This document shows, piece after piece, positions 8,532 to 38,881 of a stretch of 64,000 bases of DNA. Numbering within the stretch: the first letter of the stretch is position 1; every line of letters starts with the position of its first letter. Both the position numbers and the translations under genes were made by a program. Source of the DNA: an uncultured Chromatiaceae bacterium (GTDB lineage: Bacteria; Pseudomonadota; Gammaproteobacteria; Chromatiales; Chromatiaceae); NCBI GenBank assembly GCA_937923175.1, contig CALALB010000023.1, positions 1-64,000 on the forward strand, given 5' to 3'. The notes beneath the pieces were generated by a model that ran no database searches, was not told where the DNA came from, and saw nothing but the letters and a program-made list of their open reading frames with translations.

Positions 8532-8600
8532 GGGGCGCAGCCGGGTCTGGATCTTAGACCCTGGTCTGGGTTCATCCCGAAGAGGTCTTCAGGCAACGCC

Positions 8601-9071: not shown

Positions 9072-9080
9072 GTGAAGATT

Positions 9081-9620: not shown

Positions 9621-9635
9621 ACACTGGATACGGCC

Positions 9636-11177: not shown

Positions 11178-11310
11178 CTAGCCATTGGCGACCAGTCTTT
11201 AGTCAAAACGAGAGGGACAGGGGTTGGGAGGCAGGGTTCCGACTTCGGTGGGGCCTGCCAAGCACTTGTCGATTGACTAGCGGCTGGGCGCTGCAGGCGG
11301 GGAGCGATAG

Positions 11311-12174: not shown

Positions 12175-12216
12175 ACAGACTCAGCGCGCCGCAGGTGGAT
12201 CTCAGTACAGCATTGA

Positions 12217-13623
<1,407 letters not shown>

Positions 13624-13634
13624 GGGTTCATCCG

Positions 13635-14060
13635 ATGGCCATGACCATCCGTGTCGATATTGTCAGCGCTGAGGGCGCTATCCACTCAGGACCCGCCACC
13701 ATGGTCTATGCGAGCGCCGAGCTCGGGGAGGTGGGGATCGCACCGCGGCATACCGCCTTTATCAGCCGGCTGCGCCCAGGTGAGGTGCGGGTTGAGAACG
13801 AACAGGGTGAACAGGAGCATTTCTATGTCTCCGGCGGCATAATCGAGGTCCAGCCCCATGTCGTCACTATCCTGGCCGATACCGCCATCCGCGCCCGCGA
13901 TCTCGATGAGGCAGCGGCGCTCGAGGCCAAGCGACGGGCTGAGGATGCGCTTGCTGGGCAAAAGGCGGAGTTCGAATATGCCAAGGCCCAGGCCGAACTG
14001 GCCGAGGCAGTAGCGCAGCTGCGGGCGATCGAACGGTTGCGTAAGATGAAGCGGGCCTAA
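13635..14060 (+). CDS. atpC: F0F1 ATP synthase subunit epsilon
   Basis: Epsilon-like sequence ([36 protein letters not shown]); operon position. Confidence 0.95.
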
Positions 14061-14107
14061 ATCTTAAAGAAACACCCGCGTCGGTCTCTGATAGTAGAGC
14101 GGAGAGC

Positions 14108-14123
14108 GCCGGCACTTGCCGGC
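14108..14123. repeat. Short hairpin in atpC-glmU spacer
   Basis: GCCGGC-ACTT-GCCGGC; no T-run, so not called a terminator. Confidence 0.35.
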
Positions 14124-14221
14124 ATAAAGGGGTTATTCATACGCCTCCCTTACGCCTGGATTAGGATCAGGCTGGAAGACGGGGTGTTTTGCTTGAGGGA
14201 CACAGATTCGGGAGTCTGGTT

Positions 14222-15587: not shown

Positions 15588-18473
15588 CTAAGGTCCCCCC
15601 ACTTGGGCCACCATCTCGGCGATGGCCTGATCGACGGCGCCCTGCGTCGCTGGCACCGAGGTGGTGATACCCCCCAGGAAATCTCGGGCCATCCCTCGAC
15701 CCGCATCGGTCGCAAATGCAGCCAGCTCTTCTGGGGTATTTAGACTGTTTGTCCACAGCCGAGCCGTCTCTCGTTTGGCGTCGAGAACAGCCAGATCCTG
15801 AGTAGCTGCATTATAGGCAATGGTATAGGCTGCAGCCGGCAGGCTGATCGCGCCGCTATTGATCAGACCCTCCCAGTAGTCCAGACCTGCTGGCAAGGCA
15901 TGACGACCGAAGAGATTGAGGTAAACGCTATCGATCCGCTCGCGAACCGATAATGTCGGCGGATAGAGCACTTGCGATTCGGGCGAATTCCAGAAATCAT
16001 CGGCAATGATCCCCCAATTGCCCTGGCTTTGTTCCATCTGTTGGGTGTAATAACTTAAGCCAGCAGGGGCAGGCGGTCGCCCAAAATAACCGATATAGAG
16101 GGTCAAGACCTGCTGCTCATAGCCTTTGGTCGCCTGAGACGTATAGCCGATAATCCGGAAGTTTTGATGTGGCTCAGACCATTGCAGACTGAGTGTATCG
16201 CCCGGATAGGGGAAGTCCTTGACCTCATGACGTTTTTGCTCGCCCGTCACATATCCCAAACCGCCTGGGCTAGCGAGATAAAAGCCCCGGCTCTCGATGG
16301 GATTGCCGTCGCGATAGAGGGTGATGCGATGGAGACCATCGCTATAAAGGCTCCAATTGATCGCCGCAGCAAATCCATTGTCGATATCGCCACAGACCCC
16401 CTGGGTATCAGGCCGATCGCTGCCATAGGCTAGGTCGATCCTTTGACCATCCAGATCGGCGCTGACGCTCTGGGCAGTACAAAACCAACCGCGGATGGTC
16501 CCCAAACCGCTCTCGAGGCCGCCCTCCAGCGGGCTTTCCCAATAGCCGCTGTTTGGACCGGTCTGCTCCCCGATCTGGTGCGGGACAAAGAGATCGGAAG
16601 CGACGACAAAGTTCTGATAGGGCTCTGACCACACCAAGGGGGTACTGAGACCCTGTCTTGGGAAGTCCATGACCCTGGTGCTACCCCGCAGTCCAGTGAG
16701 GAACCGCGCCCCTAGGGTGGTGACCCTGACCTGAACACTGGTCAAGGCCTTGTCATCGGCGATCAGCTTCAGGGTATGTTGCCCGTCGCCATATTCGGAC
16801 CAGTTGATTGCGGCGGCAAACCCATTGTTGGTATCGCCGCAGATGCTTGCACTCTCTGGCTGCACCGTCCCATAGGAGGTCGCAATAGGGGTAAGGTTAT
16901 CGACCTGGACGCTGACCCGCTTGGCCTCGCATACCCAGCCATAGACGATGCTGATCCCGCTCTCGAAGCTGCCATTGATCGGCGCATCGAGCTGATAGCG
17001 AGCCGTTGATCTAATGAAATTAGCAATGACCTGAGTGGGACCCTGAATGGTCAGGGTACAGGTAGAGGTCCCAGTACAGGCCCCGCCCCAGCCTGCAAAC
17101 TCCCAGCCCTGTCCTGGGGTGGCAGTCAGGCGAACCGTTGTTCCAATCTGGAAGAGCGCCTCGCACACCCCAGGGCAAGCAATCCGGCCGAGTTCATCTT
17201 CCACCAGCCCTGAACCCGTAATCTGGACGCTCAAAGGCACCTCGGTGGGTTGGGTCTCCAGGTTCAAAATACCATTGTCCGTCTCATCATGGACGAATAC
17301 CGGCCTAAAGAACGGATCAAGCTGTGAATCGCCTTGACCGAGCTGGCCTCTGGCGCCCGCACCGGTGGCATGGACTCTGCCGTCGCTGGTCATGAGCAGG
17401 GTATGAGAGTCACCGGCAGCGATCGCCTGGATGGGGACGAGCTCACCACCAACAGAGAACCAAGTCTCTCCGGGATAGGGGAGAAACTTAATCTCGGGAT
17501 TATTAATCCCTAGCTGACCGACCCCATTGCTGCCCCATATGGCGACCTTGCCATTGGCCAATTGGGCGAGGCTATGGAGATTTCCCAGGGCAATGGCCTG
17601 GGGGGTGCTGCCGCTGGGCCATGCCAAGACGGGCTGCGGCATTGCACTCGGCTCGGTCGTGCCATTGCCGAGTTGGCCGTAGTCATTGTTGCGGCCCCAG
17701 GCCCAGATGCCATCGGGGGTCTGGGCCAGGGCGTGCCATTCGTTGGCTGAGATCCGCATCACCCCGAACCTACTCAAGGAGGTGACCTCGACCGGTCGGG
17801 TCTCGATACCGGTAACACTCCCTAGACCGAGCTGACCTTCCTCATTATTGCCCCAGGCCCAGAGCCTGCCATCGCTGGTGATGGCGAAGCTTTCGGCATA
17901 ACCAGCGGCTGCGGCGATGACATTGGCAAGCCCTGGCACCTGGACTGGAACCGCTGACCACTCGCCCCGACCCTCGCGTCCGTTGCCAAAACGCCCCGAG
18001 TCGGCCAGACCCCATACCCAGAGGGTTCCGTCTGAGCGTATCGCAAGGCTATGAAAATGACCGGTTGCGATTGCAACGACACCGGTCAGCCCGCTCACTT
18101 GAACCGGGAGCGCCCGATTCAGCCGTGTCCCATCGCCAAGCTCACCCCAGTCGTTTCGACCCCAGGCCCAGACCGTACCATCAGCCTTTAAGGCAAGCGT
18201 ATGCTCGCCGCGCGCCGCCAGCGCGACGATGTCGCTGAGACCCTGGACCCGGACAGGTAGCCCACTATACTGACCACTCCCTGACCGGCCATTGCCGAGC
18301 TGGCCATAGTTATTATCCCCCCAGGCATACACTGTCCCGTTGCGATGGAGTGCCACCGAATGAGCAGAGCCTGCCGCAAGCTGCGGGGTGGCAGCTCGGG
18401 AGGCTACTGACCCTAGACCAGCCAGCAGCACTGCACCCAGCAGCAATCGCCAGAACAATGAACGCCCTAACAT
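15588..18473 (-). CDS. Exported RCC1-repeat protein with a Cys-containing bacterial-repeat domain, a duplicated ~100-aa module and C-terminal DUF4214-like domain
   Basis: Signal peptide; many VAAGxxHSLAL...G.VWAWG.N..GQLG repeats; GWEFAGWGGACTGTSTCTLTI; two copies of GW-C-...-CGD-NNGFAAAINWS-Y-DG-H; C-term YIGYFGRPPAPAGLSYYTQQM. RBS AGGGAGTGG precedes ATG at 18473. Confidence 0.8.
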   Translation of the reverse strand: MLGRSLFWRLLLGAVLLAGLGSVASRAATPQLAAGSAHSVALHRNGTVYAWGDNNYGQLGNGRSGSGQYSGLPVRVQGLSDIVALAARGEHTLALKADGTVWAWGRNDWGELGDGTRLNRALPVQVSGLTGVVAIATGHFHSLAIRSDGTLWVWGLADSGRFGNGREGRGEWSAVPVQVPGLANVIAAAAGYAESFAITSDGRLWAWGNNEEGQLGLGSVTGIETRPVEVTSLSRFGVMRISANEWHALAQTPDGIWAWGRNNDYGQLGNGTTEPSAMPQPVLAWPSGSTPQAIALGNLHSLAQLANGKVAIWGSNGVGQLGINNPEIKFLPYPGETWFSVGGELVPIQAIAAGDSHTLLMTSDGRVHATGAGARGQLGQGDSQLDPFFRPVFVHDETDNGILNLETQPTEVPLSVQITGSGLVEDELGRIACPGVCEALFQIGTTVRLTATPGQGWEFAGWGGACTGTSTCTLTIQGPTQVIANFIRSTARYQLDAPINGSFESGISIVYGWVCEAKRVSVQVDNLTPIATSYGTVQPESASICGDTNNGFAAAINWSEYGDGQHTLKLIADDKALTSVQVRVTTLGARFLTGLRGSTRVMDFPRQGLSTPLVWSEPYQNFVVASDLFVPHQIGEQTGPNSGYWESPLEGGLESGLGTIRGWFCTAQSVSADLDGQRIDLAYGSDRPDTQGVCGDIDNGFAAAINWSLYSDGLHRITLYRDGNPIESRGFYLASPGGLGYVTGEQKRHEVKDFPYPGDTLSLQWSEPHQNFRIIGYTSQATKGYEQQVLTLYIGYFGRPPAPAGLSYYTQQMEQSQGNWGIIADDFWNSPESQVLYPPTLSVRERIDSVYLNLFGRHALPAGLDYWEGLINSGAISLPAAAYTIAYNAATQDLAVLDAKRETARLWTNSLNTPEELAAFATDAGRGMARDFLGGITTSVPATQGAVDQAIAEMVAQVGGP

Positions 18474-18550
18474 ATCCACTCCCTTTACCTTAAATTTCGG
18501 TAGATTAATCATAGTTCACTAATCCTAAAATTTTCTGATCAGGATCCGCT

Positions 18551-21500
18551 GTGACAAAACCAAACAGCACTCAACTTGCTGAACCTGAGATCCTGATCCC
18601 GGTCTTTAATGGCTATGAATCGGTCAGGCGTTGTCTAGATAGCGTCTTGCGTTATACGCCAGAGAGCTGTCCCATCCGGATCCTGGACGATGCCAGCACA
18701 GATTTGCGGTTATTGGGCTGGTTAGACGAACTGGAGCGCCAAGAGCCGCGGGTTCAGCTCAGGCGCGCCGATGAGAACCTGGGGTTTGTCGGCAATGTCA
18801 ATCGAGGTCTAGCGAGTGCGCAGGGCGATGTCATCGTTCTGAATTCGGATACCCTGATTACCCCCGGCTGGGTCGAGCGCTTGATAGGCTGTGCGGCAAG
18901 TGATGAGCGGATCGGGATCGTCTGTCCGCTGTCGAACAATGCCACCATCCTGTCGGTCCCCTGGATGAACGAGGACAACCCCATCCCAGATGGGTTAGGG
19001 ATCGAGCGTTTTGCCGCTCTGATCGCTGCGTCCAGCGCCCGCCGTTATCCGCGCCTACCAGTCGCAGTGGGTTTTTGCATGCTGATCCGCCAGGCGGTGA
19101 TCCGACGCATCGGACTCTTACATCGCGCCTATCGGCACGGCTATGGGGAGGAGTGCGACTATTCATTGCGTGCCTGGGAGGCCGGTTTCGAGGTCGCTTG
19201 TTGCGATGATGCCTTTGTCTATCATCAAGGCGAACAGAGCTTCGGGGCAGTCCCAGGTCTAGCCAAACTTAAACAACGCAATGAAGCGGTTTTATTGAGC
19301 CGCTGGCCATTTTATCATGGCCTCATCCGGCGTTTTTGTCAGCTCAATCCGCTGCGCGATGTCCAAGAGCGGATCTTGGCTGGCCTGGCCCAGGCCCGCG
19401 GCGACCAGGCCCCCCATCTGCTGTATGTCCTCCACGAATATCACAGTCTGGGTGGAACCGAGATCCATGCGCGCGCCCTCATGACAGGGCTCGCCGATGA
19501 TTACCGGATCAGCCTGATCTTTCCTGGCGAGACCGACCCCTATCGCGATTTCCAATGTGTCGATGAGGACGGGCGCTGGCGGGTATTGGCCTATCAACGC
19601 GCCCTGATTGAAACAGGCCCCAAGCTCTTCGGTTATCCGGCCGCCTTGCGCAATCCGAGCGTCGAGGCAAGCTTTGCGCGTTTGTTGGCAGGCGGGGCGG
19701 TCAGACTCGTCCATTTTCACCACCTGCTGGGCTGGGGTAGCCTGGAATTGCCGTTGATTGCGCGCCGTCTGGGCGCGGCAGTGATCCTGAGCCTGCACGA
19801 TTATTTTCTATTTTGCCCGGTGTTCGACCTGTTGAGCCCGCAGGGGCTTCCCTGCGGCAGGGATTGCGTCGATCCGGAGGATGATCGCTGTCTCGATTGT
19901 CTGTTGCACTATCCCAACACCATCGAGGATCGCGATGAGTTGCGGGCCTATCTCGGCCTGCGCCAGCAAAAGATCCTGGCAATCCTCGAGGCCGCAGAGG
20001 CGATCGTCGTGCCCTCCGGCTTTGTGCTGCAACGTTTCCTGAGTGCTTACGGCCCAGAGCTTGCACTCAAGGTCCGAGTCATCCCCCATGGTCTACCCCA
20101 GCTCGGTTCACCGATGGCGCTGCGGCCGAGTGATTCTTTTCGGCTGGGTGTTTTTGCCAACCTGACTCGGCGCAAGGGTGCCGAGCACCTTATCGAGGCC
20201 ATCAGGTTGCTCAAACACCGGAGATCTCTGCAGGTCCTGCAGTTCGGCGGGGTGGAGCCGGGCTACCGCCAGGCCCTGAGTGCAGCCGGTATCCAGATGC
20301 GGGGTACCTATCGGCATCTAGACCTCAAACGCCTGGTCGCCGAGGTCGATCTCGCTGTGGTGCCTTCGGTCTATGAAGAGACCTTTTGTCTGACCATCGC
20401 CGAACTGCAGGCACTTGGGGTGCCGGTTTTGGCCTTTGCAGTCGGCGCCATCCCGGAGCGGATCACGGATGGACAGTCTGGCTTTTTGGTCGAGGAACTC
20501 AGCGCCCGCGCCCTGGCCGAGCGGATCCAGGCGCTTATCGCCAACCCGCGGCAACTCCGGCAGGTGCGCACCTATCTACGCCAGCAGCGCCCTAAGCGGC
20601 TAGAGGACAATCTCAAGGATTACGCCGCCCTTTATGAGCAGTCGCTTGGCGTAGGGGCAAGATCCAAGTCCGATCTGCAAAAGGTGCTTGCCGAGCTGCA
20701 GACCGGCCCAGAGGGCGCACCCCTAGAGATGGGGTACGCCTTGCTGAGCTCTGTGTTGCCAGACTGGGGCAATGGACAGGGGCGGCATCATCCTGACCTG
20801 GATCCTGGGCTTGGCTGGGAGAAGGGCGGCATTGAACCCAGGGTCCTAGCGCCTCAGTCAGGATTGGACTCTTGGTCAGGTGCAAGGACTCAAAGGAGAC
20901 CTCTTGCCTATGGCTCGGTCTCGGAGCGGCGCTGGCTCGAGTCAGCAGGCCGCTATGCGCCGCCGTCTTGTTATGGTCTAGAGGGGACGGCCAAGGACCT
21001 GGACCTGGTGTTGGTCATCCTCGAGCCTATGGCCGAAACCGGTTCACTGAGCAGGACGCTCGACTCGATACCCCTGCCTCAGGGTAGACTCCAGCTGCTT
21101 GTGGTCAGCAACTCAGATGATTTGCCCGCCCATCCGCGCTGTGTTTGGTTACGCCCAGGACCCGGCCAATCGGTGGCGCGGCTGATCAACCTCTGGATTG
21201 CGGAGCACCCCAGCGACTGGATTGGCTGGATCACGGCCGGCGATCAGCTCCATCCCTCTGCCTTTGACCTCATCGCCAGCTGGATTGCCCGTCATCCGGA
21301 TTGGCGGTTCGTCTATACCGACGAAGACCGGATCGCTGAGGATGGCCGGCGTTATCGGCCCTGTTTCAAGCCGGATTTTGACTTGGATTTGCTGCGCTCC
21401 CGGGATTATCTCGGCGGCCTCTGTCTGATCCGCCGCGATGCCTTTTTGGCATGCGGGGGGCTGATCCCGCAGCCTGCGGTCGCCCAGCTCGATCTGTGTC

Positions 21501-23611
21501 TTAAGGTCGCCGATCGTTTCGGTGAGGGAGCAGTCGGTCATATCCCCCAGGTACTCTATCACCGCGCCGACTGGCACCTAGAGGTAAACCCTGATTTTGA
21601 GCTGATCAGCAAGGTTTTGGCATCCCATCTCAAACGGCGCCGACTGCGTGCCCGGATTTGTCCGACCTCGGTAGCCGGGATCCAATGGCTCGATTTTCCC
21701 CCCTCGCCCGGGGTGCAGACGGCACTGGTGCTGCTCACCCGCAGCGATCCCCAGGCAATTGCGGTAACACTTGACTCGATTCGCTCGCAGCTCGATCTTG
21801 CCGAGATCCTGATCCTGGACTTCAAGCGTAAGGGCGCGCGGGAACCTCTGGTCAGCCGTGCTCCAAACATCCGTTGGCAGCGAGCCGAGGGATCCCTGGC
21901 CCGGGCGCTCAACCGCGCCCTGCGCGCCCTTAAAGCCGAGCGGGTCTTGGTGATCCATGATGGGCTAAGCGCCCCCCCGCATGCAGGTCTGGTGTTTCTC
22001 CTCGGCTTGATCGATCGACCCGAGGTCGCCCTGGTGGGGCCCTGTATCCTGGATCCAGGGGGGCGTATCCTCCAAGGCTATCCCATCCTGGGGTTTTGGC
22101 CGCTCGGCGCCCTAGGCCAGGTCCATCGCGGCCAGAGGTTGGCCGAGACCGGTGGCCTTCTCGACCGCCATCTGTGCGTCCAACGCTGTGCGACAGTCTC
22201 GGAGCAGGCCTTTATCTTGTGGCGACCGGCGTTCATCGAGACCGGTGGATTCGATGAGACGCATTATCCAGACGCCTGGTTTTTGCTCGATCTGGGGCTG
22301 CGGCTGCGTGCCCTGGGCTATCAGACACTCTGGACACCCCATGTTACCCTGGTGGCCGAGGCCAGGGGTAGCTTTCAGCTCTATCGCCGGCGAAGCCTCC
22401 GCGATCTTGAGGTCGCAGAGGAGACAGCCAGGCTGTATGAGCGTTGGTTGCCACAGCTTGCCCGCGATCCGGCCTACAACCCGAATCTCAGCCTCCGCCG
22501 CTTTGACGCTGCACCTGAAACCGAGATCCCTGTCTCCTGGGACCCAGAACTGGGCCAACACCCGCGTATCCTCGGTTTTCCAGGCGACCTGACAGGCAGT
22601 GGTCATTACCGGGTGATCGACCCGCTCTCGGCCCTGCAGGGGAAGGGTCTGGCCTGTACTGCCTGGATCGACCCCGCTCCATCGGTCCGTCCACCAAGCC
22701 CAGTAGAGCTCGAGCGGATGGCCCCTGATGTCTTATTGCTCCATAATGCCCTCCATGATCGGCATCTCCAGGCGCTTGCCTTGTATCGGCGCTACAACCA
22801 GACCAGATTGCTCTTCTCGCTCGATGATCTGCTCACCCATCTTCCCCCCTGGAACCCCTTCAGACAGACCAATTATCCTGATCTCGAGCGGCGGCTCGAT
22901 CAGGCCTTGACGCTGTGCGACCGGCTCTTGGTGAGCACCCCAATGCTTGCCGAATGTTATAGCGAGAAACATGGCGACATCCGGGTGATCCCTAATCGCC
23001 TGGTACGCGCCCGTTGGCAGGGTCTGGCTGAGAAGGCTGCAGCCATGAGGCACAAGGCCAAGAAACGGCGCCCGCGGATCGGTTGGGCGGGGGCGGCGCA
23101 GCATCAGGGTGACCTGGAATGGCTTGCGCCCGTGGTCGAGGCGCTGGCTGGCGAGGCCGAGTGGTATTTCTTCGGGATGTGTCCGGAGACGCTCAGGCCC
23201 TATGCCGCCGGTGTCTGGCCAATGGTCGGGTTTGCTGAATATCCAAAGACCCTAGCTAGCCTAGGATTTGATGTTGCCATTGCCCCTTTGGCGTTGCATG
23301 ATTTCAACCGTTGTAAAAGCAACCTCAAGATCCTGGAATACGGCGCCCTCGGGATCCCAGTTATCTGCACTGATATCGAGCCTTATCGCATGGCCCCTGT
23401 CGAGCGTCTGCCCAATCGACCAGGCCCGTGGATCGAGGCGTTGCGGGCGCGTCTCGCCGATCTTGAAACCGCTGAGCAAGAAGGCCAGCAACTCAGACAC
23501 TGGGTGGAAAGCCACTGGATGCTTGAGGATCATCTGGCCAGCTGGAACGAGGCGTTGGTCTTTTCAGACAAGGGTTCACCAGAGATAGCAACAAGGGGGC
23601 AATCGTCATGA
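18551..23611 (+). CDS. Giant multi-domain glycosyltransferase (GT2-GT4-GT2-GT2-GT4 modules), 1686 aa
   Basis: PEILIPVFNGYESVRRCLDSVLRYTP GT2 start; LLYVLHEYHSLGGTEIHARALM...EETFCLTIAELQALGVPVLAFAVGAIPE GT4; FVYTDEDRIAEDGRRYRPCFKPDFDLDLLRSRDYLGGLCLIRR GT2; C-term IGWAGAAQHQGDLEWLAPVVEAL...LGIPVICTDIEPYR GT4-like. Confidence 0.85.
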   Translation: MTKPNSTQLAEPEILIPVFNGYESVRRCLDSVLRYTPESCPIRILDDASTDLRLLGWLDELERQEPRVQLRRADENLGFVGNVNRGLASAQGDVIVLNSDTLITPGWVERLIGCAASDERIGIVCPLSNNATILSVPWMNEDNPIPDGLGIERFAALIAASSARRYPRLPVAVGFCMLIRQAVIRRIGLLHRAYRHGYGEECDYSLRAWEAGFEVACCDDAFVYHQGEQSFGAVPGLAKLKQRNEAVLLSRWPFYHGLIRRFCQLNPLRDVQERILAGLAQARGDQAPHLLYVLHEYHSLGGTEIHARALMTGLADDYRISLIFPGETDPYRDFQCVDEDGRWRVLAYQRALIETGPKLFGYPAALRNPSVEASFARLLAGGAVRLVHFHHLLGWGSLELPLIARRLGAAVILSLHDYFLFCPVFDLLSPQGLPCGRDCVDPEDDRCLDCLLHYPNTIEDRDELRAYLGLRQQKILAILEAAEAIVVPSGFVLQRFLSAYGPELALKVRVIPHGLPQLGSPMALRPSDSFRLGVFANLTRRKGAEHLIEAIRLLKHRRSLQVLQFGGVEPGYRQALSAAGIQMRGTYRHLDLKRLVAEVDLAVVPSVYEETFCLTIAELQALGVPVLAFAVGAIPERITDGQSGFLVEELSARALAERIQALIANPRQLRQVRTYLRQQRPKRLEDNLKDYAALYEQSLGVGARSKSDLQKVLAELQTGPEGAPLEMGYALLSSVLPDWGNGQGRHHPDLDPGLGWEKGGIEPRVLAPQSGLDSWSGARTQRRPLAYGSVSERRWLESAGRYAPPSCYGLEGTAKDLDLVLVILEPMAETGSLSRTLDSIPLPQGRLQLLVVSNSDDLPAHPRCVWLRPGPGQSVARLINLWIAEHPSDWIGWITAGDQLHPSAFDLIASWIARHPDWRFVYTDEDRIAEDGRRYRPCFKPDFDLDLLRSRDYLGGLCLIRRDAFLACGGLIPQPAVAQLDLCLKVADRFGEGAVGHIPQVLYHRADWHLEVNPDFELISKVLASHLKRRRLRARICPTSVAGIQWLDFPPSPGVQTALVLLTRSDPQAIAVTLDSIRSQLDLAEILILDFKRKGAREPLVSRAPNIRWQRAEGSLARALNRALRALKAERVLVIHDGLSAPPHAGLVFLLGLIDRPEVALVGPCILDPGGRILQGYPILGFWPLGALGQVHRGQRLAETGGLLDRHLCVQRCATVSEQAFILWRPAFIETGGFDETHYPDAWFLLDLGLRLRALGYQTLWTPHVTLVAEARGSFQLYRRRSLRDLEVAEETARLYERWLPQLARDPAYNPNLSLRRFDAAPETEIPVSWDPELGQHPRILGFPGDLTGSGHYRVIDPLSALQGKGLACTAWIDPAPSVRPPSPVELERMAPDVLLLHNALHDRHLQALALYRRYNQTRLLFSLDDLLTHLPPWNPFRQTNYPDLERRLDQALTLCDRLLVSTPMLAECYSEKHGDIRVIPNRLVRARWQGLAEKAAAMRHKAKKRRPRIGWAGAAQHQGDLEWLAPVVEALAGEAEWYFFGMCPETLRPYAAGVWPMVGFAEYPKTLASLGFDVAIAPLALHDFNRCKSNLKILEYGALGIPVICTDIEPYRMAPVERLPNRPGPWIEALRARLADLETAEQEGQQLRHWVESHWMLEDHLASWNEALVFSDKGSPEIATRGQSS
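20714..20740. repeat. Palindromic repeat-like hairpin inside the glycosyltransferase linker
   Basis: GGCGCACCCC-TAGAGAT-GGGGTACGCC, 10-bp stem with one mismatch, inside coding sequence. Confidence 0.45.
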
Positions 23612-25026
23612 GTCGGAGCAAAGCAGGGCACGCCGCAATCAGCGCGGCGATCTTGGGGCTTGCCTGCTATGGGCAGGGGGGTGAAACCACAGCGGATGAG
23701 CTGATCGGCGGGGGGTGGCTTGTCGTGCCCGCTTCGACCCCAGCGGACCAACCAGCGACTGCACTCGCAAGCGGTGCGCCCATCGAGCAGGCTGCGGGTT
23801 CGACTGGAAATACCAATACGCAGAGCCTTGCCGGAACTGTGTATGACATCTGTCGCAGCGAGGGTAATGCCGGAACCCTCTTCCAGAACGACTGTAGCCT
23901 ACTGCTCGGCGGTGCAGCCCAGGACCCGGCGGGTACCGCCCAGGCGTTGATTGCGCTGACCCCCGACCAGATCCTTGCCCCGCGTAATGAGTCAGTACAG
24001 CAGGTCCAGGCAGGGCTTGGGGTCCTTGCCATGCGGATGGAGGGATTACGCTCGGCCGGGCGTGCCACCACCCCTGAGCGCATTGCGGCTCAGATCCTGC
24101 GCCAGGCCACCGGCGGGGGGGCGAGCGCTGATCTTGACCTGGGCCGTGGCGGGGCATTTTTCAATCTCAAATATCTGGACACCGAACAGGATCGCAACCG
24201 CTATACCACAGGCTATGATCAGGACGGTGTGCGCTTAACCTTGGGCGCCGATTATCGGCTCCAGGACAATCTCATCCTGGGTCTATTCGCCAACTATGCC
24301 TCAGCTGAGACCAGCTATTGGCTCAAAAAGGGCAATATGGATACCCGGACCTGGGGTCTGGGTCTTTATGGAACCTATTATTGGGACGGTGGCGGCTTTA
24401 TCGAGGGCTCGGTCGGGTATGATACCCATGATTATGATCTGACCCGCCGAATCGATTACAGCATCGTGGTCAATGGGGTGCAGACCGATGTGCGCCAAAA
24501 CGCCACCTCAGACCCCGATGGACGGACATTTTATGTAAGCCTGGGTGGCGGTTATCAACTCGAGCAACAGGCATTCACCCTAACGCCGAGCCTGAAGTTC
24601 AATTATCTGCGTACCCATCTGGACTCATATAGCGAGCGTCTATCCAATCCCAATGCGCCCGGTGGGGGTATGGGTATGGCCTTTGAGTCACAGACCCATG
24701 AATCATTCACCTCGCGTTTGGGGTTCACGATTGCTCGTGCCTTTAGTTCAGGGAGCGGGGTCTGGGTCCCGCAATTGAGCCTTGATTGGGTGCATGAGTT
24801 CTTGGGCGATCAGGAGGCCCTGCAGGCGCGATTCATCGATGATCTTGCCGGCACCCCATTGCTCCTAACCACCATGAGCCCAGACCGTAATTACTTCGAT
24901 CTGGGGGTGGGTCTCTCCGGTCAATTTGCCCAGGGACGCTCGGCGTTCATCTCGATCAATAAGCTCTTAGGCTACGAGGACATCGAGCATTACACCATCA
25001 CAGGCGGGGTACGGATGGAATTCTAG
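23608..25026 (+). CDS. Autotransporter-type outer-membrane beta-barrel protein
   Basis: 472 aa with alternating-hydrophobicity barrel strands, terminal aromatic Phe (VRMEF*), short N-terminal region; overlaps upstream GT stop by 4 bp (ATGA). Confidence 0.75.
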   Translation: MSRSKAGHAAISAAILGLACYGQGGETTADELIGGGWLVVPASTPADQPATALASGAPIEQAAGSTGNTNTQSLAGTVYDICRSEGNAGTLFQNDCSLLLGGAAQDPAGTAQALIALTPDQILAPRNESVQQVQAGLGVLAMRMEGLRSAGRATTPERIAAQILRQATGGGASADLDLGRGGAFFNLKYLDTEQDRNRYTTGYDQDGVRLTLGADYRLQDNLILGLFANYASAETSYWLKKGNMDTRTWGLGLYGTYYWDGGGFIEGSVGYDTHDYDLTRRIDYSIVVNGVQTDVRQNATSDPDGRTFYVSLGGGYQLEQQAFTLTPSLKFNYLRTHLDSYSERLSNPNAPGGGMGMAFESQTHESFTSRLGFTIARAFSSGSGVWVPQLSLDWVHEFLGDQEALQARFIDDLAGTPLLLTTMSPDRNYFDLGVGLSGQFAQGRSAFISINKLLGYEDIEHYTITGGVRMEF

Positions 25027-25040
25027 GGGCAATGCACCTG

Positions 25041-25079
25041 CCCTAGGGGACGCGATGCGTACCCTAGGGCTTTGTTTCT
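25041..25079 (+). terminator. Bidirectional rho-independent-like terminator
   Basis: CCCTAGGGGACGC-GAT-GCGTACCCTAGGG (13-bp stem, 1 mismatch) followed by CTTTGTTTCT on +. Confidence 0.65.
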
Positions 25080-27769
25080 ATCCCCCGGATGGCTGCGACC
25101 AGCGCTTGGAGCCGTGCTGTCATCTCAAGGGTGCGCTGCGGGCGGCTGATGAGCGCCTCCCTGTTCCACCGCCAAATCCAGCCCTCTGGGATCAGATCGA
25201 GTTCCCTGAAGACCCGCTGCGCCTCGGACTCGGGGTCTTGGGCCAGCTGTTCATAGATCACCCGCACCGGCTTGATGCCATAGAGCGTAAAGAGGTTGTT
25301 AAACTGGCCTTGGGCAAAGGTGATCGTCTCGAGGCGGGCGATCAGATCCTCTGGAGTCAGCTCGGCAAGCACCCTCTTCAGGTGTTTTTCTGGATAGGGT
25401 CCGCTCCAACAACCAGTGCGCTCGGCAACCAGATAGGACATGGCTTGGGCCAAGAGGTCCTGGCGCTCGATCCAGATGAACCTGACCCTGGGCCAATAGT
25501 TGGGGATTACCCCAACGCGCCATAAGAAAAAGAGCTGGTCCCAACTGAGCTTGACCGCAAACCTGGGCCCAAGCTCGGTCCTGAGATGGGCCAGATAACC
25601 CGGCAGATCCTGGATCCCTCGGGTCTCGCAGATCTCGATCAGGCGTTGGCTATCGAAGAGCTCTTCGGCGCGATTGATCAAACCGCTGGCGGCGAGCGAC
25701 TCGGCGAGCAGGTTCGAGCCGCTGCGGTTGGTAAAGGCGATGACTATGACCAGCTCAGGGCACTCGCGCAGGGAGGGCGGTCGAGGTGGGGGACGCTCGG
25801 GTAGATAGCGGGCAAAATAACCCAGGATCTCCTGCTCGTGGATCCCTGGTCGATAATCGATCAGCCAGGGCGAGGGAGTGGATGGCTCTGGTAAGTCGGC
25901 CAGGGGCGCCTCGGGGTCGGTCTCCGCGAGTCTGATCCGCCCGAGCAACCACTGCGTATCAGCGAGATAGACCGCAAGCGACTGAGCCTTCGGTAGCTGA
26001 GCGACGGTCAGGTGGAAGGCATAACGGCCATCGCCCTTGCCTGCCTGCACCAAATCCTCGCGCAGGCCATCGGCGCGCAGCCGCTGCCAGGGCTGATCAT
26101 CGAGCCTCAGCTCAACCCAGAGGCGTAGATGCGGGTATCGCGGCGCCCAGATCCAGCCGTGCAGGTCCCCCCTGATGAGCCCATCGAGATGGCCCTCGAT
26201 CAGCTCGCTCGGGGTGTCGGGGCCCAGCCGCCGCACCTCAGCGAGCAAGCGAGCAGAGGTCTCAGGGTCATTGGCGCGCCAGCGTTCGATGATTTGACGA
26301 TTGCTCAGGGTTGCCTCTGGCAGCTCAGGCAAGAGACGTTCGCCCCAGGCCGCCTCCAGCCAGGCGCGATACTGGGCGAGCTGATCAGGGATGGAGTGCT
26401 GATGGGGTCCGTAGCCATGCTTGAGACAATGGGCGCAAAGCGCCTGGGGATAATGCTGTTCGCTGATCCCAGAGCGGATCGCCCGGAATGGCAGGCCTTG
26501 CCAGATGGCGCGAGCATTGGCTTCATGGAGATTGCCGAGCGAGGGGCCGCCTTCATAGGCAAAACAACAAGGCTTGGTGTGACCGCTGCGCCGGACATAG
26601 AGCGTCTTGAAGGGCTCAAGACAATAAAAGGGCTCGGTGCCCTGATACGGGCCGAAGGCCAACGCCTGCTCGAGAGACTCGCCCTCTAACTGCCAGGTAT
26701 TGAGCAAGGATCCTGTCCGATAGCCTGGCGGCGGCTGATGGGGAATCAGCCGGCGGGCAGCCTCCGGCAGCTCGGCCAGAGTCAGGGTGGCGCTGACATC
26801 GCCGCGCGCTGTTCTCCAGGCCGTTTCATCTGCAACCGCGGTCTGGCGATACTGATCGGTCGATAGGATGACCCCGTGCGCCCTTGCCCGCCGTTCGGCC
26901 TCCTCGAGGATCGGCCCATCGATCCAGGGGCGAAAGATTGCCCGATGCCCAGCAAGCTCCTTGGTGGTTTCAAAGGTCTGGAGCGCCTTGAGATGGATCA
27001 CCTCGACCCCCGCAGTAGCCATCAGATCCACAAAGTCAGGCAGTTCCCTGACCTGGTGTTCGAAGGCGATGGTATTGACCTCGAGGCGCGGATAAGGCCG
27101 ACCCGCGGCCTTTTTACCCGCAGCCAACCGCTGAATGCCTGCCAGAAGCCTTTCAAACCCTCCGCCCAGATAGATCGACTCATACTCCTTGGCAGTGGTG
27201 CCCGAGACGCTGACCGTGACGCTGAAGACCCAGTGCTCGACCAAAAGGGCACAGAGCGCCTCATCGAGATGCATTCCATTGGTAAAAAAATCGATCAGTA
27301 CCCGATATTCGCCGAGCCGCTTGATGAGAGTGGCAAAATCCGGATGCAAAGTGGGTTCGCCATAGCCAAAACAGTGGACGCTGATCACCTGGGGCAAGAG
27401 GGGGACAAGGCTTGGCCAGAGTCGATCGAGGTCGATAAACCCCCGTTCCTGTTCCTTGATAGAGAACAAGCGGCTGGGGCTTAGCCCCGAGAAGGTCGGG
27501 CACATGGCGCATTTGAGGTCGCAGACATTGCTAACCTCGAGGAAAAGCTCGGCTGGGCACTCGGGCAGAGGCCCTCCCTGAGACCAGCTGGCAAGACGCG
27601 CGAGTGCGGCAAGCCGCTCAGGCCACCAGGGTGGATCGATGTTATCCCCTGGTTCAGCCGTGGCCATTGCCTGGGCAGTGCGTGCTCGATCAGTACCAGG
27701 CTGGAGGGCATGGGTGGAAGACCCGATCTGGGGCGCAAACCGCTCAGGGGTAAAGGGATCGGTGGTCAT
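25064..27769 (-). CDS. Radical SAM/SPASM domain protein fused to a beta-sandwich domain and a C-terminal Stf0-like sulfotransferase
   Basis: EVSNVCDLKCAMCPTF (CX3CX2C); SPASM-like EPFYCLEPFKTLYVRRSGHTKPCCFAYEG...CAHCLKHGYG; GHLDGLIRGDLHGWIWAPRYPHL...GKGDGRYAFHL; IAFTNRSGSNLLAESLAASGLINRAEELFDSQRL...FAVKLSWDQLFFL. Confidence 0.82.
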   Translation of the reverse strand: MTTDPFTPERFAPQIGSSTHALQPGTDRARTAQAMATAEPGDNIDPPWWPERLAALARLASWSQGGPLPECPAELFLEVSNVCDLKCAMCPTFSGLSPSRLFSIKEQERGFIDLDRLWPSLVPLLPQVISVHCFGYGEPTLHPDFATLIKRLGEYRVLIDFFTNGMHLDEALCALLVEHWVFSVTVSVSGTTAKEYESIYLGGGFERLLAGIQRLAAGKKAAGRPYPRLEVNTIAFEHQVRELPDFVDLMATAGVEVIHLKALQTFETTKELAGHRAIFRPWIDGPILEEAERRARAHGVILSTDQYRQTAVADETAWRTARGDVSATLTLAELPEAARRLIPHQPPPGYRTGSLLNTWQLEGESLEQALAFGPYQGTEPFYCLEPFKTLYVRRSGHTKPCCFAYEGGPSLGNLHEANARAIWQGLPFRAIRSGISEQHYPQALCAHCLKHGYGPHQHSIPDQLAQYRAWLEAAWGERLLPELPEATLSNRQIIERWRANDPETSARLLAEVRRLGPDTPSELIEGHLDGLIRGDLHGWIWAPRYPHLRLWVELRLDDQPWQRLRADGLREDLVQAGKGDGRYAFHLTVAQLPKAQSLAVYLADTQWLLGRIRLAETDPEAPLADLPEPSTPSPWLIDYRPGIHEQEILGYFARYLPERPPPRPPSLRECPELVIVIAFTNRSGSNLLAESLAASGLINRAEELFDSQRLIEICETRGIQDLPGYLAHLRTELGPRFAVKLSWDQLFFLWRVGVIPNYWPRVRFIWIERQDLLAQAMSYLVAERTGCWSGPYPEKHLKRVLAELTPEDLIARLETITFAQGQFNNLFTLYGIKPVRVIYEQLAQDPESEAQRVFRELDLIPEGWIWRWNREALISRPQRTLEMTARLQALVAAIRGIETKP

Positions 27770-33360: not shown

Positions 33361-34269
33361 TTATCGGGGGCCCCGGCGTTTCGCCAGCGCCCCCAAGATC
33401 ATCTGCCCTGACTTGAGCGCCAGATGTCCCCAGATGCCTGCAGTCACCAGCGCGCGAAAGGGCGCCGGATAATCCTGGGCCTGATGTTTGCGAAAGAAGC
33501 GCAGCATTCCTCGATGTTTGTGATATTCGACCATCCAGGGGTTTGCGGCGCTACAGGTGCCCTTGTGATGGGTCACCGCGACATGGGGGGCAAACAGGAT
33601 CATCCAACCAGCCTGACGGATCCGCACGAACCAATCCAGATCTTCGCAATGGAGAAAATAGCCCTCATCCAGCGTCCCGACTGACTCCAAGACCGAGCGG
33701 GCAACCAACATGAAGGCGCCTGAGACCGCTTCGACGGGTACTGGACCCTCTGGCAGCGGCTGATGGCGTTGATCCAGGGTCTTGGCACCGCGTCCCAGCA
33801 GCTGGTCCAGGCCCAGGAGATGGGTCAGCGCCTGTCCAGGCCTGGGAATGGCGCGCCGACAGGCGATCTGTTCGCGTCCGTCGGGGTCGCACACCAGACA
33901 GCCGATCAATCCGACCTGGGGCCAGGACTTAAACAGGGGCAGCAGACGTTCGAGGGTGTCGGGTGCGATCAGACAATCTGGGTTGAGGAACAAGACGTAC
34001 TCGCCGCGCGCAAGCGGCAGGGCACGGTTATTGGCCGCGGCAAAGCCGAGATTGGCGCCGTTTTCCAGGATTTTGAGTCGGGGATCGGCGCCATAACGCG
34101 CCCGTACCTGGATGAGGCTGTCATCCTCCGACCCATTGTCGCTGATGATGACCTCGACCGGCACGCTGGATGCCAAGGCCGCACCCACAGACTCAGCCAA
34201 TAGCCTGCCGGCGTTGTAATTGACCAGGATGATGCTCACGGACGGCAGGCTCGGCGAGTCAAGGCTCAT
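33361..34269 (-). CDS. Glycosyltransferase family 2 (rhamnosyltransferase-like)
   Basis: VSIILVNYNAGRLLAESVGAAL...VIISDNGSEDDS...GANLGFAAANNRAL...LFLNPDC. Confidence 0.9.
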   Translation of the reverse strand: MSLDSPSLPSVSIILVNYNAGRLLAESVGAALASSVPVEVIISDNGSEDDSLIQVRARYGADPRLKILENGANLGFAAANNRALPLARGEYVLFLNPDCLIAPDTLERLLPLFKSWPQVGLIGCLVCDPDGREQIACRRAIPRPGQALTHLLGLDQLLGRGAKTLDQRHQPLPEGPVPVEAVSGAFMLVARSVLESVGTLDEGYFLHCEDLDWFVRIRQAGWMILFAPHVAVTHHKGTCSAANPWMVEYHKHRGMLRFFRKHQAQDYPAPFRALVTAGIWGHLALKSGQMILGALAKRRGPR

Positions 34270-36338
34270 GCGGATATTCCCAGACCCAAGGCGGCGCGAA
34301 CCGCCCGCTCAGCCGCAGCAAAGCTGAAATGGCGCTCCATCACTGCGAGCCCGGCCTGGGATAGGCGTTCCCAGAGCGTATCGTCCTGATAAAGCCGGAT
34401 CACTGCCTCGGCGAGGTCCTCAGGGGTATCGGCGATCAGGACAGATTCGCCATCGATCAGGTGCATCCCTTCGACCGCAATGGAGGTGGCCACCACAGGC
34501 ACGCCATAGGCCAGGCTTTGGTTGATCTTGCCCTTAACCCCTGCGCCATAGCGCAGCGGGGCGACCGAGAGCCGGCAGCTTGCAAAAAAGGGCGCCACAT
34601 CCGGCACATGACCGAGGATCTCGATATCCCTGCCGGCACGTGCTCGGACCTCAGGCGGCGGATCAGCGCCGATCACCTTGAAACGCACATCGGGTAGACG
34701 GCTGCGCAGCAGCGGCATGACTGCATCACAGAAAAAACAGACCGCATCGCGGTTGGGCGGGTGGGAGAAGGCCCCAATGAACAAGAGATCGCGCCGCGCA
34801 GCGGGCGGATTGGCTGAACCGAAGATCTGATGGATATTTGAAACCACCTGGACCTGGACCTCTGGGGCCTCGAGCGCTAACAGGTCGCGCTCAACCTCGC
34901 TCACAACCCAGGTCAGATCGGCCTGACGCATCAGATTGAGCTCTTGCCGCTTACGCGTCTCGGCCAGCAGACGCATGCCGAGATCCCCGACCAGCGCAGC
35001 CAGCCTGGATTCACGCAAGAAATGCAGATCCACGGTATCAAAGATGATGCGCGCCCGCGGGCAATGGCGCCGGGCGCTCTCCATCGCCTGACTCGCGGCA
35101 TCGGCGCGGCTGAGGATCACCAGATCATAACGCTGGCCCAGGATCGAGAGATGTTCGTCAAGGGAACGGACATAAGGGCGATAAAGCACCTCGATCCCTT
35201 GGCGTTGCAGATCGGCGACATAGGGTTGAGGCGCCTCCAGATTGGCCGCGGCAAAGGTCACCTGATAGCCGAGCCTCTGGAGAAGGCGAAACAGATTGAG
35301 CATGCGCAGTGAACCGGATTCCCGATCCGGGGTGATCATATAATTGTCCACGACCAGCACCCGCCGTATCCGAGAGGGCGTCAGGGGGATCGGTGCTCCG
35401 GGCGAGTAGTAACCACTGGCCTGCATCAGGTTCAGGCGCAAACCACGCCCCACTTGGGTGCGGCGCATGGGTGGCTCATCTGCCCCAAACCAGACCACCC
35501 GCGCCAATGGTTGGCCATAGACCCGATATCCCAGCTCAGCAAGACGCTGGCTGAGCTGGGCCGCAAGCCCATCCGCCGCGGCAGTTGCGGATGGAAACCC
35601 CCCGACCGTTCGAAAAAGATCGGTGCGGATCGCCAGCGCTGCCAGCGAGCAGGCGGAGAGGGGACGGCGATAGTTACAGGCCGGATGCTCCGGATCGGCG
35701 AGATGGCCGAGCGGGCGCAGCAGTCCTTCGGGTCCGGTACGCCAGCCGAGCTCGCGCTGACGTCCGTCAGGATAAAGCAGACGACTGGCGACAATACCTG
35801 CGTCCGGGGTCTCGGCAAAGGTCTGGGCCAGTACATCCAACCAGCCCGGCTGAACCTGGGTATCATCGCTCAGAAAGATGATGAACGAGCCGCTCGCCTC
35901 CCGGGCTCCTTGGTTGAGCCGGTCAGAGAGGGCGCTGTCCGGTGTGGCCTGGACCAGCCTGACCCCTGGATAGCGGCCAAGCTGCTGCCCCCGTTCATCA
36001 TCGATCGCGATCACCAGGATGACCTCGAATGGGGTCCGGGTCTCGGGATGGGCCAATGCGGCCAGACAATGATGAACGGCCGATAGGGGGTGCTGGACTG
36101 GGATGATGATCGAGACCAGGGGTGCAGTCCGCTGATCAAAGGCGATCGGCTCGAAGGGCTCGGCGAGGCGCAACAGGGTTGGCGGACCCTTAGCGGCAAG
36201 TGGATGATTGTACAAACGCCGGCGCAGTTTGCGCACCAGGACCCGCGCGCCTTCCGTGCGCAATACATGCAGCATCCGCGGTAGATAGCGGATGAGATTA
36301 TCGAACAGGCCAGCTCTAAGGGTGCGCGCGATGGTCAT
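34266..36338 (-). CDS. Bimodular glycosyltransferase (GT2 + GT4)
   Basis: PLVSIIIPVQHPLSAVHHCLAAL... then RRVLVVDNYMITPDRESGSLRMLNLFRLLQRLG...GAGVKGKINQSLAYGVPVVATSIAVEGM. ATG at 36338 preferred. Confidence 0.88.
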   Translation of the reverse strand: MTIARTLRAGLFDNLIRYLPRMLHVLRTEGARVLVRKLRRRLYNHPLAAKGPPTLLRLAEPFEPIAFDQRTAPLVSIIIPVQHPLSAVHHCLAALAHPETRTPFEVILVIAIDDERGQQLGRYPGVRLVQATPDSALSDRLNQGAREASGSFIIFLSDDTQVQPGWLDVLAQTFAETPDAGIVASRLLYPDGRQRELGWRTGPEGLLRPLGHLADPEHPACNYRRPLSACSLAALAIRTDLFRTVGGFPSATAAADGLAAQLSQRLAELGYRVYGQPLARVVWFGADEPPMRRTQVGRGLRLNLMQASGYYSPGAPIPLTPSRIRRVLVVDNYMITPDRESGSLRMLNLFRLLQRLGYQVTFAAANLEAPQPYVADLQRQGIEVLYRPYVRSLDEHLSILGQRYDLVILSRADAASQAMESARRHCPRARIIFDTVDLHFLRESRLAALVGDLGMRLLAETRKRQELNLMRQADLTWVVSEVERDLLALEAPEVQVQVVSNIHQIFGSANPPAARRDLLFIGAFSHPPNRDAVCFFCDAVMPLLRSRLPDVRFKVIGADPPPEVRARAGRDIEILGHVPDVAPFFASCRLSVAPLRYGAGVKGKINQSLAYGVPVVATSIAVEGMHLIDGESVLIADTPEDLAEAVIRLYQDDTLWERLSQAGLAVMERHFSFAAAERAVRAALGLGISA

Positions 36339-36439
36339 TGGGGCGAGTTGCAAACATTCTCTGGCGCACCGGTCTGGGATGAAGCATTGGATCCAGGGCC
36401 AACCGGATGCCCGGCCCAAGCGGTACCGGGCGGCTGGGC

Positions 36440-36919
36440 TTATGGATTCATGGGGCGAAATCCTGGCATGGTCGGCCATTCAGGGGCCTGCTGACCCTGA
36501 TATTGACCCTGGGGCGGAGGCAGCTGGGATTGCTGGCGCGATTCAAGCTGATCAAGCCGCCGCTTGAGCGTCTCGATCTCCTTGGGATCGACCCGATTCG
36601 CCCCAGAGGATTGGGCTTGAGCCGGCGCATATCCCGGCGCTATCCCATAACCTAGGGGGGGGACACCGAAGCCTGGCCAGCCATAGGGCCCACCATAGAA
36701 ACCTGGATAGCCATAGGGTCCATAGGGACCACCCCAGGGACCGCCGTACCAGTCATCATAATAGCGGTCATAGCGATCCCTGCCCCCGAACCAGCGGCTG
36801 GGGTTCATCATATTGCCGAAATCAAAGGCAAAGGCCGTTGAGAGATCACCCAGGCCGACGAGACATAGGCTGAGTGACATGACAGATGTTGCAAGCTTAC
36901 GAACGATAGAGATTGACAT
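36440..36919 (-). CDS. Secreted Gly/Tyr/Pro-rich protein, sulfur-globule-protein-like
   Basis: Signal peptide ending STAFA; FDFGNMMNPSRWFGGRDRYDRYYDDWYGGPWGGPYGPYGYPGFYGGPYGWPGFG; GGAGG RBS before ATG 36919. Product name by composition only. Confidence 0.6.
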   Translation of the reverse strand: MSISIVRKLATSVMSLSLCLVGLGDLSTAFAFDFGNMMNPSRWFGGRDRYDRYYDDWYGGPWGGPYGPYGYPGFYGGPYGWPGFGVPPLGYGIAPGYAPAQAQSSGANRVDPKEIETLKRRLDQLESRQQSQLPPPQGQYQGQQAPEWPTMPGFRPMNP

Positions 36920-37080
36920 AACTCCTCCACAGCTGTCACTCCCGGAAACCCGGGTGTTGGATTGGTTTGATGGCGATTCCATGTCATGAAACCCGGCGCT
37001 CCCTGCCTTGCGGCGGGGCGACCCTATGTCGGCCGGGGCATCCGGTATCCTGGGTTCCCCTCACTGGCAGCAACCAGACC

Positions 37081-37920
37081 CTAAACATGCGCATGTCTCG
37101 GCCCATGGGTATGACCTGGGATTGCACCCTCTCGATCTGCCTGAGGTTCGCTTAGCCCCTGGAGGTTTGGGCGAGTGGTGTGACCGGCGTGTAGACGCTC
37201 ACGCTGAGCTCGGAGCTCATCCCGCAGCCATTGCAGCCAGGACGTTAGGGTTTCTGGCTGGCGCGCCGAGACCAGGAGGAAGGGTGCGGCATTGGCGAGT
37301 ACCCGCAGATGCTGCTCAGCGCGTTGCGGAGCGAATTCGGTCATAAAGGGCAATAGATCCGCCTTGGTGCAGAGTATTAGGTCTGAGGCGCGAAACATGA
37401 CCGGATATTTGGCGGGTTTGTCGTCTCCCTCGGGCACCGACAACAGGGTCACATTGCGATGCTGACCGAGATCAAAGCTTGCAGGACAAACCAGATTGCC
37501 GACATTCTCGATGAATAGGAGATCGATCCCCTGCAGGTCCAACCGATGTAAGGCGCGGTGGACCAGTTGGGCGTCGAGATGACAGGCAGTGCCGGTGGTG
37601 ATCTGGATCGCTGGCACGCCCTTGGCGCGGATACGCTCGGCATCGTTTTCAGTCTCAAGATCACCCTCGATCACCGCGATCCCCAGCTCCCCCTTGAGCG
37701 CCTCGATCGTCGCCTCAAGCAGACTGGTCTTGCCAGCCCCCGGCGAGGACATGAGATTGATCGCGAAAACACCGCAGGCATCCAGATGCGCCCGATTATG
37801 CGCGGCCTGATGGTCGTTTTCGGCCAGGAGCCCTCGCATCACCACTTCCTTGCTGGCGGGCGCGGCCTGGATGGTTTGAACCTGATCCGTCGTCTGTCCG
37901 CAGCCGCAGGTCGTGCACAT
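37081..37920 (-). CDS. hypB: Hydrogenase nickel incorporation protein HypB
   Basis: MCTTCGCG N-term; INLMSSPGAGKTSLLEATIEAL; IEGDLETENDAERIRAKGVPAIQITTGTACHLDAQLVHRAL; GGAGGTGGACC RBS. Confidence 0.96.
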   Translation of the reverse strand: MCTTCGCGQTTDQVQTIQAAPASKEVVMRGLLAENDHQAAHNRAHLDACGVFAINLMSSPGAGKTSLLEATIEALKGELGIAVIEGDLETENDAERIRAKGVPAIQITTGTACHLDAQLVHRALHRLDLQGIDLLFIENVGNLVCPASFDLGQHRNVTLLSVPEGDDKPAKYPVMFRASDLILCTKADLLPFMTEFAPQRAEQHLRVLANAAPFLLVSARQPETLTSWLQWLRDELRAQRERLHAGHTTRPNLQGLSEPQADREGAIPGHTHGPRHAHV

Positions 37921-38277
37921 GGTCCACCTCCGATTGGGGCTAGTTAGGGTTAGATTGGGTCGGCTTGGGAAGTCTAGCCAGGAACGCTAGAGTCTTGCGG
38001 GCAGCGGCTGAGTGGCTTGGCCTTCGTTCACCCTGCCGGTTCGTCTATTCGTCCCAAAGACCCTTTCGAAATGGATGTCCATCTTGGCGGCAATGCCGCA
38101 AGCCTGCAAGCCTGTCTTTAGCTCGGCCAACGCCGGCAGCTTGCCAAACTCCAGCATCTTGAGCCCTGTGCCTGGATCGGGGCCAGGGCAGGGTCTCCCC
38201 GGAAAGGGATCGGCGGCGAGACAGCGCGAGCAGCTCCCTGAGCAGACCAGGGCGAACTGATCCTGGGGGCCATGTCC

Positions 38278-38622
38278 TCAAAAGGTCCCCTTGTTCCAGC
38301 CAAACAATTGGCGCGGGGGGCTGGCAAACTCGATATAGACCCGCTGGGCTGGGATGGCGAGTCTGGCCTCAAGCCAGTCGCCCAACTGTCTGGAGAGCTC
38401 GGCGGTCTGGGTCTCAGCGAGCCCTAGGCTTTTAAGCTCAAGATAGGCCGCAGGTTCAGCACTGCCGGCAAATAGAAGCTCGCGCCCAGGCTCTAGGATC
38501 ACCATCACATAGGATTCGGGTTTGCCGAGGAGTTCGGCAACCCGCTTGGAAAGCTCAGCCAGCACAGCCCGGCGACTTTCAGCCGCGATCTCGACGTTGG
38601 TCAATAGGCGCAAGGTCGGCAT
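38278..38622 (-). CDS. MIF/phenylpyruvate tautomerase-like protein
   Basis: 114 aa from ATG 38622 with AGGAGG upstream; MPTLRLLTNVEI...LLGKPESYVMVILEPGRELLFAGSAEPAAYLELKSLG; IEFASPPRQLFGWNKGTF. Confidence 0.82.
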   Translation of the reverse strand: MPTLRLLTNVEIAAESRRAVLAELSKRVAELLGKPESYVMVILEPGRELLFAGSAEPAAYLELKSLGLAETQTAELSRQLGDWLEARLAIPAQRVYIEFASPPRQLFGWNKGTF

Positions 38623-38881
38623 CGATCGATTCCTCCTCAGACTCGGTCGTTCGATCAGGCCGTTTGCAACCCGGCCCTGATCAACGGGCGTTTGACCTGC
38701 CCTTGGTATAGCATTCAGTTCACTCCAGCATTCTAGGACAATCCAGATATAAAAACCCCCACTGCCCCACCCAAGCTGGCCTTGAGTCCGGGTGGGCGCC
38801 ATGCGATCTCTCAGCGGTCTGCCCTGTTCCTGAACCTTAAAATCCTGGTATCTCACCTCTTGGGTCCGAGGCCTTTCCGTT

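Follow-up and report, generated by a model that had tools for sequence, protein, structure and literature searches.

A radical SAM enzyme fused to a Stf0-family sulfotransferase in Chromatiaceae and its possible role in glycan tailoring

Within the window, meaning the whole 64,000-nucleotide stretch of Chromatiaceae DNA analyzed here, a single open reading frame (ORF) of 901 amino acids joins a radical SAM enzyme to a sulfotransferase of the Stf0 family. On balance, we favor the view that this fusion is a bifunctional glycan-tailoring enzyme that oxidizes or epimerizes a sugar and sulfates the same glycan, with a sugar or glycoprotein of the cell surface as its probable target. An earlier note on this DNA had described a radical SAM-SPASM-Stf0 fusion at the same coordinates. 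The coordinates proved correct, the fusion is borne out by Pfam, profile, fold and orthologs, and the strand, unstated at the time, is minus. The features of the fusion are as follows.

25064..27769, minus strand: fusion ORF, 901 aa, radical SAM / Twitch-SPASM / middle beta domain / Stf0 sulfotransferase
26714..27550, minus strand: radical SAM core, aa ~74-352 (Pfam PF04055, AlphaFold, Foldseek)
27500..27523, minus strand: CX3CX2C motif C83-C87-C90 (CDLKCAMC), invariant in 23 family members
26426..26623, minus strand: Twitch-type short SPASM region, C383...C401C402...C445xxC448 (Pfam PF13186, invariant cysteines)
25910..26263, minus strand: middle beta domain, aa ~503-620 (modeled strands; homologs in GT2 proteins and a sulfotransferase)
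25067..25849, minus strand: Stf0-family sulfotransferase domain, aa ~641-901 (PF09037; 1TEX by profile and by Foldseek)
25694..25735, minus strand: 5'-PSB loop FTNRSGSNLLAESL, aa 679-692, aligned with the 1TEX P-loop
25661..25663, minus strand: E703, counterpart of Stf0 Glu36 (1TEX alignment; invariant in 6/6)
25400..25480, minus strand: 3'-phosphate-binding segment FIWIERQDLLAQAMSYLVAERTGCWSG, aa 764-790, aligned with 1TEX

The N-terminal half carries two Pfam domains above their curated cut-offs, namely Radical_SAM (PF04055; aa 78-216, 4e-10) and SPASM (PF13186; aa 383-448, 9e-9). All eight cysteines concerned, C83, C87, C90, C383, C401, C402, C445 and C448, are invariant among the 23 aligned family members. 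The auxiliary set follows the pattern C383-x12-G-x4-C401C402...C445xxC448, with no cysteine between C448 and the C-terminal third of the fusion. A full seven-cysteine, two-cluster SPASM domain as found in RiPP maturases was considered and rejected; since the set is limited to C383, C401, C402, C445 and C448, the region is assigned to the Twitch type and is predicted to hold one auxiliary cluster. Both the ligation of a Twitch cluster and the presence of a single auxiliary cluster have been described for BtrN (PMC9012708). The CX3CX2C core that had been recognized earlier is thus supported by the three cysteines, the Pfam score and the fold match, and the Cys-rich SPASM-like segment reported beside it stands as an auxiliary-cluster region, its form being the short five-cysteine Twitch.

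In the AlphaFold model, most of the radical SAM half lies at pLDDT >90, and its Foldseek matches include SuiB, BlsE, DesII, SkfB, PqqE, BtrN and others. By sequence and fold, the radical SAM part resembles BlsE, DesII and BtrN, which act on sugars or cyclitols, as well as peptide enzymes, and the peptide maturases SuiB, SkfB and PqqE reach Foldseek E-values equal to or better than those of the sugar-acting enzymes. Judged from the model, the fold of this half does not by itself tell sugar from peptide substrates. The rank of SuiB and SkfB among its best matches is one point in favor of a protein as the substrate: the radical SAM half would alter residues of, for example, an autotransporter passenger or barrel, and the sulfotransferase half would sulfate tyrosines or a protein-borne glycan. 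Taken with the evidence below, we regard this explanation as rather unlikely. No NCBIfam equivalog is matched above its cut-off by the fusion, the best scores being those of remote radical SAM maturases and of trehalose 2-sulfotransferase, far below. The top-scoring family, the tungsten cofactor oxidoreductase maturase (TIGR04317), reaches 76.6 bits vs a cut-off of 380 bits and was set aside; apparent molybdate-transport genes do lie near the Thiospirillum copy, in a neighborhood that is not conserved.

Turning to the C-terminal domain, Pfam places it in the Stf0 Sulphotransf family (PF09037) above the curated cut-off, with the best stretch at aa 762-858 (1.7e-12). When a profile of five orthologs was searched against PDB sequences, the sole match was Stf0 (1TEX, E 1.6e-8), and the alignment takes in both the 5'-PSB loop and the 3'-PB segment. 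Glu36 of Stf0 is the proposed catalytic base, and its counterpart E703 is invariant in all six Stf0 fusions, as are R682, S683, G684 and S685 of the PSB loop and R769, D771, Q775, S778 and W788 further on. Stf0 has an arginine in its PSB loop where other sulfotransferases carry a lysine (PMC11625862), and by alignment R682 would fit that arginine. Because the matches listed by Foldseek for the whole chain are radical SAM enzymes only, the domain was also modeled separately, from two sequences (mean pLDDT 70.6). The top four Foldseek matches of this modest model are 1TEX chains (E down to 3.6e-7, TM ~0.5), which supports the Stf0 family and not fine detail. The Stf0 assignment, first made by eye from short motifs, is therefore upheld by Pfam, profile and fold, and at the C-terminus, where the earlier note had allowed for the absence of a PAPS-binding fold, the predicted fold is that of a PAPS-type sulfotransferase with Stf0 as its best match. 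Tyrosylprotein sulfotransferases rank next after 1TEX, as might be expected if a protein were sulfated; Stf0 itself, however, sulfates a disaccharide. The disaccharide trehalose is not the predicted acceptor here, since the score against trehalose 2-sulfotransferase (NF047724) is 45.9 bits vs an equivalog cut-off of 400. All ten genomes tested encode an APS kinase, so the sulfate donor PAPS can be made.

Between the two catalytic halves lies a domain modeled by AlphaFold with about seven strands. It has no homolog by sequence among solved structures. Matches to its profile are L084 and L085, both GT2 glycosyltransferase proteins, the short L086, which is encoded between other genes, and L087, which is Sulfotransfer_3-like. 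The GT2 matches agree with the earlier suggestion that this domain resembles those attached to glycosyltransferases, and by homology the domain points to a glycan context. That it is common to glycosyltransferases also weighs against a protein substrate.

The fusion occurs as one ORF in six genomes of the family Chromatiaceae, representing three genera (G000, G004, G005, G007, G026 and G365). Identity to the fusion of the window is 72% in G004, 63% in G005, 62% in G007 and about half in G026, Thiospirillum jenense; for the sulfotransferase domain of the orthologs it is 46-72%. Every catalytic residue is kept in all six. Across the six, the linker is divergent in sequence and preserved in reading frame, and in four of the genomes the gene sits on a contig of 2.9-5 Mb with the frame uninterrupted across the domain junction. 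It had been proposed that separate genes in related genomes would reveal a frame artefact; close relatives carry a single ORF. That an annotation or assembly error made two adjacent genes read as one is hardly credible, given an uninterrupted frame through the junction in six genomes, which already refutes it, and no support for it was found. Since five other genomes conserve the single ORF, frame artefact and chance are both excluded. In the AlphaFold model of the whole chain (pTM 0.58), the relative placement of the domains is not confident. This low value would suit another explanation, that the halves have separate target molecules, for instance a nucleotide sugar and the finished glycan, and are joined only so as to be co-expressed or co-localized within a complex for glycan assembly. 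We consider it improbable, and the pairings described below bear on it from both sides.

The genes that accompany the fusion offer further clues to its substrate. In the window the two immediate partners are as follows.

18551..23611, plus strand: 1686-aa multidomain glycosyltransferase (GT2 + GT4 domains)
23608..25026, plus strand: 472-aa autotransporter beta-barrel outer-membrane protein (PF03797, 5.6e-51)

The start of the barrel gene lies inside the stop of the glycosyltransferase gene (ATGA overlap), the barrel gene converges with the fusion gene, and the cluster is flanked by genes reading as glmU and glmS. Among 195 genomes of the order, full-length orthologs of the glycosyltransferase are found in six, exactly those that have the fusion; one further genome holds the second half only, at 38%. 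The fusion lies beside the glycosyltransferase and the autotransporter-barrel gene in five of the six genomes. The trio stands together in G004, G005 and G007 as it does in the window, and in G365 the fusion gene is divergent and adjoins the glycosyltransferase. In Thiospirillum (G026), the glycosyltransferase-barrel pair is on another contig than the fusion. A naive estimate puts the chance of this six-of-six co-occurrence at 1.4e-11, a figure that makes the case look stronger than it is, since four of the six genomes belong to one genus. More telling are the joint absence of fusion and glycosyltransferase from four genomes of that same genus (G001, G002, G003 and G006) and their joint, unlinked presence in Thiospirillum. 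For the barrel protein, the best six matches are the six fusion genomes, with weaker homologs in 15 more. If the fusion modified a protein, the barrel whose gene adjoins it in the genomes of the genus would be a candidate, but the barrel family reaches beyond the six fusion genomes (21 of 195 at E<=1e-60), whereas the distribution of the glycosyltransferase is exactly that of the fusion. Of the two kinds of substrate named in the earlier note, a glycan is favored over a peptide.

Several other features of these loci deserve mention. In G004 (L013), the trio cluster is bracketed by two direct copies, 97% identical, of an apparent IS630-type transposase (1561-2538 and 13182-14187), a layout resembling a composite transposon that could explain the patchy distribution. 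In G005 (L015, 2270-7262, plus strand), the giant glycosyltransferase is split into two overlapping ORFs of 940 and 961 aa, by a frameshift or a sequencing error. A 974-aa RCC1-repeat protein with a DUF4214 stretch adjoins the glycosyltransferase in the window (15588-18512, minus strand) and is present in G004 (L013) as fragments only. The window also holds a second glycan-related stretch (33361-42409), in which a hypB-like gene is surrounded by an epimerase-like gene and by glycosyltransferase genes encoding 302, 737 and 1175 aa, and, away from the fusion, a separate gene of the Sulfotransfer_2 family (58357-59019, minus strand; E 5e-15).

The association of this kind of radical SAM enzyme with sulfotransferases extends beyond the Chromatiaceae. 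A scan of 84,980 species genomes yielded 18 loci of the radical SAM subfamily of the fusion, and pairing was surveyed within this subfamily only. In Thiotrichales (L021-L024, including Thiomargarita), a sulfotransferase domain stands N-terminally, ahead of the fused radical SAM module. It is Sulfotransfer_1 (PF00685) by Pfam in L021, L022 and L023, and in L024 by similarity to these. In L021 and L022 a methyltransferase domain separates sulfotransferase and radical SAM, and in L021-L023 the radical SAM module is followed by a Methyltransf_24 domain. The L023 protein (8465-13861, plus strand) is 1798 aa long and carries two radical SAM/SPASM modules in tandem besides a sulfotransferase and a methyltransferase domain. 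In a Sedimenticola MAG (L027), genes for a glycosyltransferase, a Sulfotransfer_3 protein and the radical SAM protein form a co-directional row, with the last two only 2 bases apart. Other Sedimenticola MAGs, too, have sulfotransferase genes next to the radical SAM gene. At L025, L029, L031 and L060, this gene is convergent with one that carries the sulfotransferase motif FLHIPKTAGT and whose Sulfotransfer_2 score, where found, is under the cut-off; as pairings, these neighbors are suggestive only. Near L029 there is also a clear Sulfotransfer_1 gene (E 1.9e-36), with a homolog in L025. In two Sedimenticola loci (L060, 140-1378; L031, 7962-9881), the radical SAM gene begins where a gene of the sulfatase fold ends, beside the sulfotransferase-like genes. 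No sulfotransferase was seen among the genes examined at L026, L030 and L032-L035, so the radical reaction would not always need sulfation.

In a tree of the radical SAM domain, the Stf0 fusions, the Sulfotransfer_1 fusions and the neighbor-gene group occupy three separately supported places, the Thiotrichales group including one radical SAM paralog that has no sulfotransferase domain. Since the different sulfotransferase families sit at opposite ends of the chain, the comparison indicates that the Stf0 and PF00685 fusions arose by separate joining events. Split-gene and N-terminal versions imply that a fixed geometry is not needed, as co-localization of two independent activities would allow, yet recurrent pairing with sulfotransferases of different families points to one pathway with a shared product, without by itself proving that both halves act on the same molecule. 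A protein substrate gains little from these loci, as no barrel gene was seen among the genes examined in the Thiotrichales and Sedimenticola pairings. Because the subfamily pairs repeatedly with several sulfotransferase families and with glycosyltransferases, the earlier note's idea that both chemistries act on one substrate is strengthened, and such a substrate is likely for the fusion.

For tailoring of a single glycan, the likely course of events may be sketched as follows. The 1686-aa glycosyltransferase would build the glycan, and the middle beta domain may hold or position it, or else a partner enzyme. The N-terminal half would cleave SAM at the C83/C87/C90 cluster and take a hydrogen atom from a sugar carbon, with the electron passing to the single auxiliary cluster. 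The product would be an oxidized sugar, or an epimerized one where a hydrogen donor is available. In a further step, the Stf0 half may move a sulfuryl group from PAPS onto one of the hydroxyls of that same glycan, E703 acting as the base and R682 lying at the sulfate ester. The finished glycan would end up on the cell surface, with the adjacent autotransporter-barrel protein as a possible carrier, a role that we propose less firmly than the rest. More tentatively, the loci could represent a recurrent system for tailoring glycans, built on the coupling of one radical SAM subfamily to several sulfotransferase families by fusion or by neighborhood, which in purple sulfur bacteria would yield an oxidized or epimerized sulfated glycan on a dedicated outer-membrane autotransporter.

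As far as titles and opening lines of abstracts in the literature on 'radical SAM' and 'sulfotransferase' indicate, no description of a protein combining radical SAM, SPASM and sulfotransferase was found. Each domain belongs to a known family, and on that reading their union and its recurrence seem to be undescribed. Little is known of bacterial surface sugars that carry sulfate, and, to our knowledge, very few enzymes that perform radical chemistry on assembled glycans have come to light. A natural bifunctional radical SAM-sulfotransferase offers a single expressible protein in which both chemistries can be studied, and its recurrence with several sulfotransferase families gives a way to mine genomes for a class of modified sulfated glycans.

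The fusion can be compared with several known systems. With Stf0 (1TEX), the C-terminal domain shares the family by Pfam, profile and fold, the PSB-loop arginine, the conserved 3'-PB segment and the Glu36 counterpart; it differs in being covalently joined to a radical SAM enzyme. BtrN has in common the short SPASM region of Twitch type, with a four- or five-cysteine set, one auxiliary cluster and the Cx12Gx4C...CxxC pattern. It matches the fusion in sequence and fold, although remotely (phmmer E 0.33), and the fusion differs by a long insertion ahead of the auxiliary cysteines and by being fused. BlsE, a cytosylglucuronate decarboxylase, and DesII are the best sugar-acting matches of the radical SAM half, the former in sequence and fold and the latter in fold, but both stand alone without a sulfotransferase partner, and the fusion scores below the equivalog cut-off for BlsE. 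The glycosyltransferase genes of TibC and Aah are paired with those of the autotransporters TibA and AIDA-I. The arrangement in the window, where the autotransporter gene directly follows the glycosyltransferase gene, is comparable by analogy only; here, as known from the genes alone, the glycosyltransferase is instead a multidomain GT2/GT4 protein and the passenger is short. A further parallel is provided by the Thiotrichales giants, including that of Thiomargarita, in which the same radical SAM subfamily is fused to a sulfotransferase that is PF00685 and not Stf0, lies at the N-terminus, is accompanied by extra methyltransferase domains and belongs to a separate branch of the tree.
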